64,000 nucleotides of DNA, taken from an uncultured Candidatus Binatia bacterium. GTDB lineage: Bacteria; Desulfobacterota; Binatia; Bin18. A program made the position numbers and the translations under genes. The stretch is taken from NCBI GenBank assembly GCA_958296235.1, contig OY282457.1:885769-949768 (forward strand). Reading direction: 5' to 3'. Positions within the stretch are counted from its first letter, which is position 1. The number at the start of each line of letters is the position of its first letter. A model generated the notes under the pieces. It was not told the origin of the DNA. It saw nothing but the letters and a program-made list of their open reading frames with translations, and searched no databases. Shown piece by piece: positions 30,227-35,937 of the stretch.

Positions 30227-30249
30227 GGGCAACCACAGGGGGTTGCCCC
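30227..30249. repeat. GGGCAACC palindrome, copy 1
   Basis: Imperfect palindrome GGGCAACC-ACAG-GGGGTTGCCC. Two further copies lie at about 33835 and 33898, all in intergenic positions. It is REP-like. The rest of the 200-bp gap 30156-30355 shows no gene. Confidence 0.75.
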
Positions 30250-30355: not shown

Positions 30356-30973
30356 ATGACGACCACCACCATCACCCACTATTTTGATTATAAAAGCCCG
30401 TACGCCTACCTTGCCCAGGAGGAAACGTTCCAGCTCGAAAATGAGTTTGCTGTGACAGTAGACTTTCTGCCGCTGACGCTGGACATTCCCAAATTTCTGG
30501 GCTCTGCCGAGGTCGATGACGCTGGCAAAGTCATGACTGCGGAGCGGAACGCCCATCAGTGGCGGCGGGTGAAATACAGCTATATGGACTGTCGGCGGGA
30601 GGCCACGCGCCGCGGTCTGACGATTCGGGGACCCCGCCATATTTTCGACTCCGCGCTGAGCCATATCGGCATGTTGTACGCCAAACAACAGGGAGATTTT
30701 CGGCCCTACCACCAACTCGTGTATGAACGCTTTTGGAAACGCGAGCTGGCTATTGAGGACCCCCAAGTACTGAAGCGCGCGCTGGAAGAAGTCGGTATCG
30801 ATACCCAGGGGTTTCTCGATTACCTGAACGGCGACGGTCGCCGCGAGTTGGAGCGCATACAAGCCGAAGCCGAAAAGGCAGGCGTGTTCGGCGTCCCCAG
30901 CTATGTGGTCAACGGCGAACTGTTCTGGGGCGCTGAGCGCCTGGTTCGCGTACGCGAGCGACTGGCAGCCTAG
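30356..30973 (+). CDS. DsbA-fold 2-hydroxychromene-2-carboxylate isomerase-like protein
   Basis: A 205-residue kappa-class-GST/DsbA-fold protein. The active-site position is FDYKSPYAYLA, with a Ser and no CxxC, which fits HCCA isomerases (glutathione-dependent isomerisation in naphthalene-type degradation) rather than a disulfide oxidoreductase. The C-terminal cis-Pro motif is GVFGVPSYVVNGELFWG. The ATG has ACAGGAG upstream. It may work with thiol-linked aromatic breakdown alongside the GST gene, which is inference. Confidence 0.85.
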   Translation: MTTTTITHYFDYKSPYAYLAQEETFQLENEFAVTVDFLPLTLDIPKFLGSAEVDDAGKVMTAERNAHQWRRVKYSYMDCRREATRRGLTIRGPRHIFDSALSHIGMLYAKQQGDFRPYHQLVYERFWKRELAIEDPQVLKRALEEVGIDTQGFLDYLNGDGRRELERIQAEAEKAGVFGVPSYVVNGELFWGAERLVRVRERLAA

Positions 30974-31013: not shown

Positions 31014-31520
31014 ATGGTCGTCCTTCTCGTCACACTATTGGCCCTCCTGTTCCTCTTCTATATCTGGTCCCGAGGACGCGAACAGACGCATAGCGTCCCG
31101 TCCTATTTCTTCAATGCGGTCAAAGTTTACGCCTTGCTTGGGGAGGAGGACGCCAAAGTCGCGGCCCGGGCCGCCGGCAAAATTGCCAGCCCTCGTCAGC
31201 GGAGCATGATGCTGGATTATCTGAACAGACGGACGTCCGAGCTGCTACTGGAAACAGCGGAACAGAACGCCGGCCAGAACCCCCTGGTGATCGTCGAGCG
31301 CCTCTTACAGCTCAAACAGGAGATGAGCCTCCAGGCCACGTCCACTGACGAGCGCGCGCCTGACCTCATCCCTGAAAAACAGTGGTTGCACGACCATAAT
31401 CAAGCCTATCTGCGAGCGCTGGGGCGGGGCGACCCAAGCGTCTTTGTTGCCCAGCATCCAGACCTGTTCTCCTCCCAGACCACCAAGCCGGTCACGGCCA
31501 GAAACGATGAAGCAGTCTGA
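31014..31520 (+). CDS. Single-span membrane protein of unknown function
   Basis: A 168-residue protein with an N-terminal membrane helix (VVLLVTLLALLFLFYIW) and a helical, charged cytoplasmic domain (ALLGEEDAKVAARAAGKIAS). No family is recognised. Its stop overlaps the MFS gene start by 14 bases, and the HCCA isomerase-like gene ends 40 bp upstream, so it is probably part of the same transcript. Confidence 0.6.
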   Translation: MVVLLVTLLALLFLFYIWSRGREQTHSVPSYFFNAVKVYALLGEEDAKVAARAAGKIASPRQRSMMLDYLNRRTSELLLETAEQNAGQNPLVIVERLLQLKQEMSLQATSTDERAPDLIPEKQWLHDHNQAYLRALGRGDPSVFVAQHPDLFSSQTTKPVTARNDEAV

Positions 31521-32778
31521 CCCCTCCCAGGCGCGCCCTGCCCTTGCCGCTCTTGCTCAACCTGCGGTGACGGTAGCCGCGGCACCCGCAGCGGCAGCCC
31601 CCACTCTGGCTCGGGCGACGCGGCCGCGCTGGCTGTTACTCGGTCTGGCGATGGCCATTATTTTCACCGATGCCGTGGGCTATACGGTTATCATCCCGGC
31701 GCTGCCGAGCTTTGTGGCAGAATTGGGCCTGGGAGAAACCCGCGCGGGTACGCTGTACGCCTCATACGGTTTGATTTCTCTGCTGCTCTACCTTCCCTTT
31801 GGTCTGCTGGTGGACCGCTGGGGCGAACGGCGGTGGCTGACAGTGGGGATGCTGACCCTGGGACTCGCCTCGCTCGGATTCTGGCAGGCCAGCGGATTCT
31901 GGGCCCTGCTCGGCTGCCGCGTCACGCAAGGCGTCGCCGCGTCCGCAACCTGGGCCGCGGCCCTCCCCCTCGCCGCCCGGCTGGCGACCACAGAGCGGCG
32001 TGGAGTGGAAATGAGCGTCCTGATGATGGCCTTCAGCATTGGCGTGGTGGCCGGGCCGGCCATCGGCAGTCTGGGTCAGGTCCGTGACCCCTTCCTGTAT
32101 TTTGCCGGGGCGCCGTTCGGCCTGGCCCTGTGCGTCTTTGCCCTGCTGCCGCGCGATGCTCCCCCCACCACTCCAGTCGTTGCCGGCTCTGTCGCTCCAG
32201 CCCTTTTCCGAGACGGCCTGCGGCGTGAACTCGTGTGCGCCTGCCTGGTGATTCTCGTCACCTGCGCCACGCTGGGAGCCATTGAGATACTGCTTCCGCT
32301 CCAATTCTCCCGGCTGGGCTGGACGCGCCATCATATCGGGCTGTTTTTTTCGGGCTGGGGTCTGGCCATGCTGATTATCCAGCCACTCATCGGCTGGTGG
32401 TCGGACCGGCGCGGGCGACGGGAACCTATCCAATTCGGCCTGCTTGCCGCGGCGGTCCTGACGCCCAGCCTGTTTGCCGCCCTTGATTCGGTCTGGCTGT
32501 TCCCCCTCGCCCTGGCGACAATTCTGGCCCTGTCAGCCGCCCTTGTCCCCACCCTGCCCCTGATGGGTGACTATCTCACCGAAGGGCAGTCCGGGAAAGC
32601 CTTTGGGTTTTACAATATGGCCTTCAGTCTGGGCATGGTGTTGGGACCGTGGTCAGGGGGCTATATCACCGAGCGCTTCGATGTACTCCGGGCCGCGGTC
32701 CTGATCAGCATTCCCCTGCTTGTCATGGTGCCGCTTGTGCCCTATTTGTTACGCCAGACACAGCCACGAAAGGGATAG
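31507..32778 (+). CDS. MFS transporter
   Basis: A 423-residue major facilitator superfamily permease with about 12 membrane helices after an Ala/Pro-rich cytoplasmic N-terminus of about 40 residues. The MFS signature loop between helices 2 and 3 reads GLLVDRWGERRWLT, and a second copy between helices 8 and 9 reads GWWSDRRGRRE. The pattern fits drug/metabolite efflux (DHA-type). It is followed after 3 bp by the 346-residue unknown gene, suggesting a shared role. Confidence 0.88.
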   Translation: MKQSDPSQARPALAALAQPAVTVAAAPAAAAPTLARATRPRWLLLGLAMAIIFTDAVGYTVIIPALPSFVAELGLGETRAGTLYASYGLISLLLYLPFGLLVDRWGERRWLTVGMLTLGLASLGFWQASGFWALLGCRVTQGVAASATWAAALPLAARLATTERRGVEMSVLMMAFSIGVVAGPAIGSLGQVRDPFLYFAGAPFGLALCVFALLPRDAPPTTPVVAGSVAPALFRDGLRRELVCACLVILVTCATLGAIEILLPLQFSRLGWTRHHIGLFFSGWGLAMLIIQPLIGWWSDRRGRREPIQFGLLAAAVLTPSLFAALDSVWLFPLALATILALSAALVPTLPLMGDYLTEGQSGKAFGFYNMAFSLGMVLGPWSGGYITERFDVLRAAVLISIPLLVMVPLVPYLLRQTQPRKG

Positions 32779-32781
32779 CCG

Positions 32782-33822
32782 GTGGCCCAGTTACAGTCTT
32801 CAACCTACGACCTGGCCGATATCGTCGCCGTCAATGACCTGTATCACCAACGCGGCTGGACGGACGGCCTGCCCATTCTTCCCCCCACGCAAGAACTCGT
32901 TCAGGCCTGTCTCGATGCGGCTGGCCTGGCGCCGAGCGCCGTTATTGGCGTTGAGTCCGTCCGACAACGCCCGATCAGCGCGGAGAAGGTCGCCATCAAT
33001 GCGGTGATGGCGGGCTGTCTGCCGGCCTATATGCCCGTCGTCGTCGCAGCGCTCAAAGCCATGTGCCAACCGGAGTTCAATCTGCATGGCAGCACGGCGA
33101 GCACCGGCGGCAGCGCCCAGTTTATTGTGGTCAACGGGCCTGTTCGACAGCGTATCGGGCTGAACGCCACCCATAATGTCCTGGGTAACAGCAGTCGGGC
33201 CAATGCCAGTATTGGCCGCGCCATCCGCCTCCTGCTCATTAACGTGCTGGGCTGTGTCCCCGGACAGCTCGACCGCTCAACCCTGGGCCATCCGGGCAAA
33301 TTCACCTTCTGTATTGCCGAAGACGAAGAAGACAGCCCGTGGACGCCCTTGGCGCAGCAGCGTGGCATTCCCGCCGGTACGTCGGCAGTTACCGTTATGG
33401 CGGGAGAGTCTCCGCGCCAAACCATGAACGAGTGGACCCGCGACCCGGCAGACATCGTTGAGACCTTTGCCGCGGAGATACGCCACAATATGTTGACCTA
33501 TTCGATCTGGGCCGGGAATTACGCCCTGATTATTCCCAAACAACTGCGCGACCTCATCGCGGCTGCCGGCTGGCAAAAGCGCGACATTCAGGAGTATGTC
33601 TCCCGTTCAGCCCGGGTTGTGCGCCGCGACTGGGCCACAGTGGGGAAACAGCAGATCGTCAACCTGGGCAAGGGAGCCGACCAGCGCTTCAGCGCCTTAC
33701 GCGCGCCGGACGATTTACTGGTAGTTGCCGCGGGTGGCCCGGCAGGTGGGTTTGGAGCTATTGTGCCGCCCTGGTTGGGCTCCCGGTCGCAGGCTGTGAC
33801 GCAGATCATCGAAACCCCATGA
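32782..33822 (+). CDS. Conserved-looking protein of unknown function upstream of the UGSC selenoprotein
   Basis: A 346-residue cytoplasmic protein starting at a GTG. Near the N-terminus RGWTDGLPILPPT is striking; then GSTASTGGSAQFIVVNGPVR and LNATHNVLGNSSRANASIGR, and near the C-terminus VAAGGPAGGFGAIVPPWLG. These Gly/Asn-rich loops look like a substrate or nucleotide pocket, but I do not recognise the family. It lies 3 bp after the MFS gene and 146 bp before the UGSC selenoprotein, the gap being filled by two palindromic repeats. Functional linkage to the selenoprotein is a guess from position. Confidence 0.65.
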   Translation: MAQLQSSTYDLADIVAVNDLYHQRGWTDGLPILPPTQELVQACLDAAGLAPSAVIGVESVRQRPISAEKVAINAVMAGCLPAYMPVVVAALKAMCQPEFNLHGSTASTGGSAQFIVVNGPVRQRIGLNATHNVLGNSSRANASIGRAIRLLLINVLGCVPGQLDRSTLGHPGKFTFCIAEDEEDSPWTPLAQQRGIPAGTSAVTVMAGESPRQTMNEWTRDPADIVETFAAEIRHNMLTYSIWAGNYALIIPKQLRDLIAAAGWQKRDIQEYVSRSARVVRRDWATVGKQQIVNLGKGADQRFSALRAPDDLLVVAAGGPAGGFGAIVPPWLGSRSQAVTQIIETP

Positions 33823-33834
33823 GCCCACGGAGCT

Positions 33835-33920
33835 GGGCAACCACAGGGGGTTGCCGGAACCAAAGAAGGCTGTAGCGTGGGCGTATGCCACGAAGCTGGG
33901 CAACCACAGGGGGTTGCCCC
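33835..33920. repeat. GGGCAACC palindrome, copies 2 and 3
   Basis: Two copies of the same GGGCAACC-ACAG-GGGGTTGCC palindrome as at 30227 lie at 33835-33855 and 33898-33920, in the gap between the 346-residue gene and the UGSC gene. Both are preceded by CGNAGCTG-like bases. They lie on the plus-strand transcript and could form hairpins. Confidence 0.75.
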
Positions 33921-33968
33921 TACGGGTGAGGGGGTTGCTGGAAGCCGCTATAGATAAGGAGGAAGGCT

Positions 33969-34511
33969 ATGACACTTCGTGTGCTTGATCCAACTTTTGA
34001 CGGCGACCAGGCGACCCAGGCGACCGTCTCTCGCCTGTCCACTCTGGCCGGCCGGACGGTCGGCCTGCTCGACAACGGCAAGCTCAATGTGGACACCTTG
34101 CTCGATCACCTCGAAGCCCTCCTGCGCTCACAGCACGGCGTCAGTACCGTCATCCGCCTGCATAAACCGGACGCCAGCCGGCCGGCTCCTGATGACGTGG
34201 CGCAAGGGTTCGCCGCGTGTGACGCAATCATTTCCGCGGTCGGTGATTGAGGCAGCTGTTCATCGTGCAGTTTGCACGATGCCCTGACCGCGGAAAAGGC
34301 GGGCGTCGCGGCCACCGCTATTATTACGGATCGTTTTGTCCCAACGGCCAAAGCCATGGCCACAGTCCAGGGCAGGTCCGATTATCCCTTTGCCGTTATC
34401 CCCCATCCCATTGCCAGCAATAGCGAGCAGACCCTGCGCGAGAAGGCCGCGGATGCCGTGCGGCAATGCGTCGAGATTCTGTTGCAAGGCGAGCCACAGG
34501 CCAATGCCTAG
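33969..34511 (+). CDS. UGSC family selenoprotein, in-frame UGA at 34248-34250 read as Sec
   Basis: A 180-residue protein if the UGA at codon 94 is read as selenocysteine. Both halves share one frame, and the join reads VGD-U-GSC-SSC-SLHD, the UGSC motif that names this seleno/cysteine protein family; U94, C97 and C100 form a redox-type cluster. The upstream half (TLRVLDPTFDG, GRTVGLLDNGKLNVD) and downstream half (VAATAIITDRFVPTAKAMAT) are both coding-like. A strong AAGGAGGAAGG precedes the ATG. A perfect hairpin (34261-34281) follows the UGA at the distance expected for a bacterial SECIS. A plain gene caller would split it into 33969-34250 and 34272-34511. Its stop overlaps the PLP decarboxylase start by 8 bases. 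The family's reaction is unknown to me; no selA, selB, selC or selD is in the window. Confidence 0.9.
34261..34281 (+). promoter_or_regulatory. Putative bacterial SECIS hairpin
   Basis: A perfect 9-bp stem (CATCGTGCA with TGCACGATG) capped by the 3-base loop GTT. The loop begins 19 bases after the UGA, and its first base is G; bacterial SECIS elements usually have a G within the first two loop positions and a loop roughly 16-37 bases from the UGA. The hairpin is in-frame coding sequence of the selenoprotein. Confidence 0.85.
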
Positions 34512-35937
34512 CCACCGCGGAGCGGGGTCTTTCCCGCTTGAGCCCTCAACTGACGAGATGCGTCACCTGGTTGACCAGGCGATGCAGTATATTACGGCCC
34601 ACATTGAGTCGTTGCCAGACCAGCCGGCGGCCAACACCGAAGGCGGAGCCGAACTCGCCCGCAGCCTGCGAGAACCCTTGCCCGAGCAGGGGCAGGCATA
34701 CTCCGAGCTTTTGCAGACGCTGTTCCAGACCGCCATCCCGCGCAGTTTCAACTGTGCCGGACCGGGCTATCTGGCCTACGTGCCCGGTGGCGGCATCTTT
34801 CATGCCGCGGTGGCTGACCTGATTAGTGACGCGGTGAATCGGTACGTCGGCGTCTGGGCCGCGGCCCCCGGCCTGGCCCAGCTTGAAGCCAATGTGGTGC
34901 GCTGGTTCTGCGCTATTATCGGCTATCCGGCCTCTGCCGGTGGGTTTCTGACCACTGGGGGCTCGCTGGCGAATTTCTCGGCTATTTTTACCGCCCGCCG
35001 TGAGCGCCTGCCCGATAATTTTCTGGACGGTATTCTCTACACCTCAAGCCAGACCCACCATTCAGTGCAAAAGGCGGCTCTGCTGGCCGGATTTCCCGCT
35101 CACAACGTGCGGGAGATTCCAACGGACGAGGACTTCCGCATCCGGCTCGACGCCTTGCAGCGCCACATTGCCGCAGACCGGCAGGCGGGTCTCACACCAT
35201 TTCTCATTCTCGGAAACGCCGGGACGACGAATACGGGCGCAGTAGACGACCTCACCGCCCTGGCCGATATTGCCCGTCAACACGGGCTCTGGCTGCATGT
35301 TGATGCGGCCTACGGCGGCTTCTTTATGCTGACCCAGCGTGGTCGGGCTCGCCTAGGCGGGATTGAGCGGGCGGATTCGATTACCCTTGACCCGCATAAG
35401 GGACTTTTTCTGCCCTTTGGCACCGGGTCTCTTCTCGTGCGGGAGCGCGCGGCACTCAAACGGGCGCATCAGGGTGAGGCAGCCGCCTATCTACCGACCA
35501 TGCAGGATGATCCCGACTGCGTGGACTTTTGCCAGATTTCGCCTGAGCTCTCCCGCGACTTTCGCGGGCTGCGCGTCTGGCTGCCCCTCAAGCTGCACGG
35601 CGTTCAGCCCTTTCGTCAGGCCCTGGACGAAAAACTCGATCTGGCCGTCTGGGCCACCGCCGAGCTCAAAAAAATCCCAGAGGTTGAAATCGTTGCCGAG
35701 CCGCAATTATCCATTGTCGCCTTTCGGCTGAACCGACCCGGCTTGGATACACCCGCTCTCAACGCACTGAATCACACCTGGCTGCAAGCCATTAATGCCC
35801 GCAAGCGGGTCCTGCTGACCGGCACGATGCTGGGCGATCTGTTTGCCATCCGTATCTGTGCCTTATGTTTTCGGACTCACCAGGACCGCATGGCAATGTG
35901 CCTGGAAGATATTCGGGCGGCCTGCCGAGCGCTGTGA
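34504..35937 (+). CDS. PLP-dependent aromatic-L-amino-acid decarboxylase family protein
   Basis: A 477-residue group II pyridoxal-phosphate decarboxylase (DDC/GAD/tyrosine decarboxylase type). The PLP lysine is K299 in ITLDPHKGLFLPFGTG, the PLP-stacking His is in SSQTHHSVQKAALL, and D267 lies in LWLHVDAAYGGFF. It would decarboxylate an aromatic or related amino acid; some homologues are amine-forming aldehyde synthases, so the product is not certain. The ATG at 34504 overlaps the selenoprotein stop, indicating translational coupling; a longer upstream frame lies in the selenoprotein gene and is rejected. Confidence 0.88.
   Translation: MPSHRGAGSFPLEPSTDEMRHLVDQAMQYITAHIESLPDQPAANTEGGAELARSLREPLPEQGQAYSELLQTLFQTAIPRSFNCAGPGYLAYVPGGGIFHAAVADLISDAVNRYVGVWAAAPGLAQLEANVVRWFCAIIGYPASAGGFLTTGGSLANFSAIFTARRERLPDNFLDGILYTSSQTHHSVQKAALLAGFPAHNVREIPTDEDFRIRLDALQRHIAADRQAGLTPFLILGNAGTTNTGAVDDLTALADIARQHGLWLHVDAAYGGFFMLTQRGRARLGGIERADSITLDPHKGLFLPFGTGSLLVRERAALKRAHQGEAAAYLPTMQDDPDCVDFCQISPELSRDFRGLRVWLPLKLHGVQPFRQALDEKLDLAVWATAELKKIPEVEIVAEPQLSIVAFRLNRPGLDTPALNALNHTWLQAINARKRVLLTGTMLGDLFAIRICALCFRTHQDRMAMCLEDIRAACRAL

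Follow-up and report, generated by a model that had tools for sequence, protein, structure and literature searches.

A UGSC-family gene with an in-frame UGA in a Candidatus Binatia bacterium, its linked partner gene and a candidate two-component selenocysteine-dependent reductase

Positions 33969-34511 of the window, the whole 64,000-nucleotide stretch of a Candidatus Binatia genome analysed here, hold a gene with a UGA inside its frame. The locus raises two questions: whether this codon is read as selenocysteine (Sec), and in what kind of enzyme the product might work. The 2008 paper that described UGSC-containing selenoproteins from metagenomes proposed a thioredoxin-like fold for UGSC and found it fused to a domain named Unknown_1 (PMC2398784); reviews of 2022 and 2026 list UGSC without a function of its own. 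The family is already known, and the additions made here are its systematic linkage to a partner protein and its relation to GrdB. A first-pass annotation of this DNA was silent on the adjoining partner gene, on five further UGSC paralogues in the genome and on the remote GrdB similarity.

The in-frame UGA and its SECIS element

The gene and its decoding signals comprise the following features.

33956..33962, + strand: Shine-Dalgarno AAGGAGG, 6 nt 5' of the ATG at 33969 (from sequence)
33969..34511, + strand: UGSC family selenoprotein gene, 180 aa, Sec at codon 94 (from family scores, translation and dN/dS)
34248..34250, + strand: in-frame UGA read as selenocysteine (UGA in nearly all aligned homologues; TGC, Cys, in L152 and L089)
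34261..34281, + strand: bacterial SECIS hairpin, stem 34261-34269 / 34273-34281, loop GUU 34270-34272 (from fixed distance and covariation)

With TGA read as Sec, the region forms a single 180-residue frame (33969-34508, stop TAG at 34509-34511) whose sole UGA sits in ...AVGD-U-GSCSSCSLHD.... This agrees with the first-pass annotation, which had joined two coding pieces of one frame through a TGA in D-U-GSC-SSC-SLHD and stated that standard gene calls split the gene; translation table 11 indeed gives two open reading frames (ORFs), 33969-34250 and 34272-34511. Assignment to the UGSC family was likewise upheld, the protein scoring 139.2 bits against NF041046 (curated cut-off 125) and 181 bits against PF24696 (curated cut-off 25). 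The motif [UC]GSC, with Sec or Cys, is present in the window protein and in aligned homologues. The window protein also keeps U-x-x-C-x-x-C, of which the first Cys after Sec is nearly invariant in the family and the second often is not. Compared with the family as described (NF041046, PF24696; PMC2398784), which has the same UxxC Sec motif, a downstream SECIS and fusion to another domain, the window member differs in nothing essential. Between the window gene and its homologue in L096, dN/dS was 0.14 before the UGA and 0.145 after it (SECIS codons excluded), and on this comparison the codons on either side are under equal purifying selection.

The hairpin CATCGTGCA-GUU-TGCACGATG is exact over 9 bp, and a G opens its loop. 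Both properties had been noted in the first-pass annotation, which placed the hairpin 19 bases past the UGA; that offset belongs to the loop, and the stem begins at 10 nt. Among 126 UGA sites in relatives, the best hairpin loop lay exactly 19 nt past the UGA in 103, with a G within the first two loop bases in 94%, and when the scan was displaced to six other positions the stem score fell to between roughly one half and two thirds of that at the true site. Across 59 diverse sequences, 85.9% of cells of the nine-pair stem were paired, and double changes occurred in 43 cells versus 13.6 in shuffles. The covariation score of the stem was 0.286 versus 0.120 shuffled, a value reached in 0 of 500 shuffles, and the signal was destroyed when the partner strand of the stem was slid. 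Among codon-preserving shuffles of the window gene, 1.1% produced 9 bp at the hairpin's register and 0.25% an equal stem at any position within range. Homologues with Cys or Thr have no such stem at the SECIS register (0, 1 and 3 bp). A single-sequence fold of the region was unremarkable (z -0.78). Like bacterial SECIS elements, the hairpin stands right after the UGA, inside the coding sequence, with a G at the loop start; it differs in having no match to Rfam SECIS_1 in a search of window and genome, a model that was also silent in all control genomes. Because of the fixed 19-nt distance, the compensatory changes and the absence from two Cys homologues, we regard the hairpin, as judged from sequence, as a real bacterial SECIS.

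The genome is a single contig of 4.62 Mb. The first-pass annotation had proposed a search for selA, selB, selC and selD, and all are present: SelA (595 bits), SelB (386 bits), SelD (310 bits) and a tRNA-Sec with anticodon UCA that adjoins selA (68.6 bits). Six UGSC genes were found, each with one in-frame TGA. A true stop, a sequencing error or a pseudogene, leaving two ORFs side by side as table 11 yields them, is very improbable given the same UGA in the six paralogues and nearly all homologues, a SECIS that covaries, selection that is equal on either side and a complete Sec gene set. Even less credible is a genome-wide reassignment of UGA to another amino acid such as Trp, for which no support was found: the adjoining partner gene stops at TGA (33820-33822), homologues carry Cys at the site, and the Sec genes are present. 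We infer, with near certainty, that the UGA at 34248-34250 is decoded as Sec. The first-pass annotation had called this the most likely reading, and the genomic Sec genes, the Sec or Cys homologues and the covarying SECIS bear it out.

Two side observations concern the Sec genes. A second tRNA-Sec-like gene (UCA; genome positions 2957301-2957377, - strand; L001 2496-2576) lies about 0.9 kb from the first, inside a duplicated stretch; it is without some 15 nt around the variable arm, has a changed T arm and looks like a degenerate copy. SelD (256428-257342, + strand; L018) lies within a 775-residue open frame and is probably a fusion; an Ndh-SelD fusion is known (PMC2398784).

Homologues in other genomes

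UGSC occurs in 30 of 297 genomes of the phylum, and nearly all of these copies have exactly one TGA in the domain. UGSC genes from 80 further loci of named genomes carried UGA at the aligned position in 79 cases and Cys in one, from Geodermatophilaceae; L089 (genome G092) too has TGC (Cys) at the Sec position. Alignment of homologues, a check suggested in the first-pass annotation, gave Sec or Cys throughout, save for one Thr in a degenerate extra copy.

That copy (L091 8079-8576, + strand) is a fused UGSC-partner gene with Thr for Sec/Cys and without the hairpin; it lies beside an intact Sec copy and is possibly non-catalytic. A further homologue (L062 7409-7900, - strand) has U-A-G-N in place of U-G-S-C and so combines Sec with the loss of the usual resolving Cys.

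SelA scored above cut-off in 28 of the 30 UGSC genomes. In G092, where the only UGSC is the Cys form, a genome search gave no SelA match at all and no SelB over cut-off, and the best tRNA-Sec-like match was a tRNA-Ser. This is what a reading of UGA as Sec would lead one to expect. An exception is G198, which carries eleven UGA-containing UGSC genes with hairpins mostly intact (L061-L067), and selA, selB, selD and tRNA-Sec all went undetected in its 240-contig assembly, which is rated 100% complete. An assembly gap is the likely cause: with selA, selB and selD clustered together, as they are in two same-class relatives, one gap could explain most of the absent genes. Contamination was considered as a cause and set aside, the base composition of the UGSC contigs resembling that of the genome (lowest L062, 0.837).

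A linked partner protein and a remote relation to GrdB

The UGSC gene is flanked by four genes on the same strand.

31014..31520, + strand: small hypothetical gene, 168 aa, overlapping the MFS start; L096 homologue at 2221-2724
31507..32778, + strand: MFS transporter gene (PF07690), 3 nt upstream of the partner gene; also upstream of the partner in L096
32782..33822, + strand: partner protein gene, 346 aa, without a Pfam/NCBIfam family; linked to UGSC
34504..35937, + strand: PLP-dependent decarboxylase gene (PF00282, 224 bits), its ATG (34504) overlapping the distal UGSC stop (ATGCCTAG)

The small hypothetical protein, which has no Pfam match, is 168 residues long if it starts with the ATG at 31014, and the longest ORF begins at 30903. 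The PLP decarboxylase was rejected as a constant component of the system, since a search of the closest relative, L096, found no homologue of it.

The partner protein matched no Pfam or NCBIfam family, GrdE-type models included, and no similarity to GrdB was found. Its linkage to UGSC was assessed in both directions. The 80 further loci, found with partner peptides, tested how often the partner has UGSC: the two were adjacent or fused in 78, and the remaining two loci were cut by contig ends. For the converse, how often UGSC has the partner, 40 loci were fetched from the phylum, and a member of the partner family lay beside or was fused to UGSC in 38. The partner is likewise present at each of the five remaining UGSC loci in the window's own genome. 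A structure model of one natural fusion (L076) was confident over both domains (pLDDT 90.7, pTM 0.91); Foldseek/VIA rows matching this model covered mainly the UGSC half. UGSC and the partner are likely the two components of one enzyme, and the partner is likely identical with the Unknown_1 domain of the 2008 paper. De novo TIM barrels were dismissed as relatives of the partner, their weak matches of about 45 residues in a solved-structure sequence search being taken as chance.

In the model of UGSC itself (pLDDT 93.7), strands and helices alternate in five units, and Sec 94 lies after the strand and before the helix of the third; the Sec domain is predicted as Rossmann-like alpha/beta with Sec at a helix N-terminus. 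Foldseek/VIA returned generic Rossmann-like matches only (best 8s7v_H, Z 11.0, rmsd 3.9 Å, 137 aligned) and no clear fold neighbour, and the solved-structure sequence search gave nothing convincing for UGSC. These results bear on the proposal that UGSC is a thioredoxin-type selenoprotein for general thiol/peroxide redox chemistry whose redox substrate is the partner; the UxxC motif and the fold proposed in 2008 (PMC2398784) lend it support. We consider it unlikely: the predicted strand-helix order, with Sec after the third strand, seems not to be that of thioredoxin, no thioredoxin family is among the Pfam matches, and the remote similarity described below points to GrdB. Moreover, the paralogues, up to about eleven per genome and placed beside a variety of transport and catabolic genes, have the look of enzymes specific for their substrates. 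Partner linkage and GrdB similarity both argue against the thioredoxin-like fold suggested earlier.

Several UGSC-partner fusion proteins weakly match the NCBIfam models of GrdB, GrdF, GrdH and PrdB, the best members at E 4e-5 to 7.5e-5, far below the curated cut-off, and in one such member the match falls within the UGSC half; the window's own UGSC protein had no match to GrdB/PrdB models. With a GrdB profile built with GrdB sequences from the phylum, hhalign aligned UGSC (A1) across 92 columns (E 3.7e-9), with Sec opposite Sec and the alignment extending to a shared PHP motif. A shorter PrdB-like group aligned at E 1.9e-6. When both Sec motifs were masked, UGSC and GrdB still aligned at E 8.8e-5, against 0.028 for the best of 100 column-shuffled controls and 0.017 for a reversed profile, and since the masked value beats both controls, the likeness reaches beyond the motif. 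Residues 326-421 were the only part of GrdB that aligned, and the relation shown by the profiles is a distant one, confined to the C-terminal portion of GrdB. GrdB/PrdB proteins (TIGR01917, TIGR01918, NF040794, NF040795, TIGR04483) share with UGSC the aligned Sec, the UGTC/UGSC motif, the helix that follows it and, about 50 residues later, the PHP motif. UGSC differs in being without the N-terminal ~320 residues, at 180 aa in all, and in scoring below the curated cut-offs, and its partner is not recognised as GrdE.

The same data can be read as those of some other, non-redox or regulatory selenoprotein whose GrdB similarity reflects a shared selenocysteine loop only; the fold of the partner is unmatched, and UGSC matches only the Sec half of GrdB. 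This too seems improbable, as the similarity survives masking of the motif and extends to the PHP motif some 50 residues beyond.

A proposed reductase and its locus

Substrate binding and ammonia release in glycine reductase are the work of GrdB, whose UxxCxxC motif GrdA is believed to meet (PMC13188914). The farACEB system combines an MFS transporter with GrdB/GrdE-like proteins and is proposed to reduce fluoroacetate (PMC10838667). The window layout of MFS transporter, partner and UGSC is similar, being likewise a two-component unit beside a transporter, with substrate binding assigned by analogy. At homologous loci the neighbours include TctABC, solute-binding proteins, CoA-transferase III and enoyl-CoA hydratases; they vary widely, so that no substrate can be named. 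From the GrdB likeness, the farACEB-like layout and the organic-acid neighbours we infer, by analogy, a two-component Sec-dependent reductase that would cleave a C-X bond in small organic acids. Proteins with a common Sec domain may still differ in chemistry, and complex formation, reaction type, substrate class and reductant of the UGSC pair are all putative.

In the mechanism envisaged, SelB, guided by the SECIS hairpin (34261-34281), would bring Sec-tRNA to the UGA. The UGSC Sec domain, a remote homologue of the Sec region in GrdB/GrdF/GrdH/PrdB, would work with the partner encoded upstream, which may hold an organic-acid-type substrate in the manner of the B components of glycine, betaine and fluoroacetate reductase. 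The selenolate would attack an activated carbon, with expulsion of a substituent, after which a thiol reductant would regenerate it via the UxxC cysteine; uptake of the substrate would fall to the MFS transporter. Taken whole, from Sec decoding to a reductase made up of UGSC and partner, this mechanism is modestly favoured. More tentatively, and with some doubt on our part, UGSC and partner may represent a widespread, previously unrecognised class of Sec-dependent enzyme for reductive C-X cleavage, with a GrdB-type Sec domain, a new substrate-binding partner and paralogues specific for different substrates, in bacteria that are not among the classical amino-acid fermenters. Thanks to its near-obligate partner and its likeness to the GrdB Sec domain, a selenoprotein that had been an orphan becomes the subject of a concrete two-protein enzyme hypothesis, open to expression and assay.

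Two minor observations concern the surrounding DNA. A palindromic repeat, GGGCAACCACAGGGGGTTGCC, has three exact copies in the window (30227-30247, 33835-33855 and 33898-33918) where none is expected, and two of them fall between the partner and UGSC genes. A likely further selenoprotein lies about 22 kb outside the window, where a short match to GrdB/PrdB (genome positions 972305-972670, - strand; 57.6 bits, below the family cut-off) contains an in-frame TGA.
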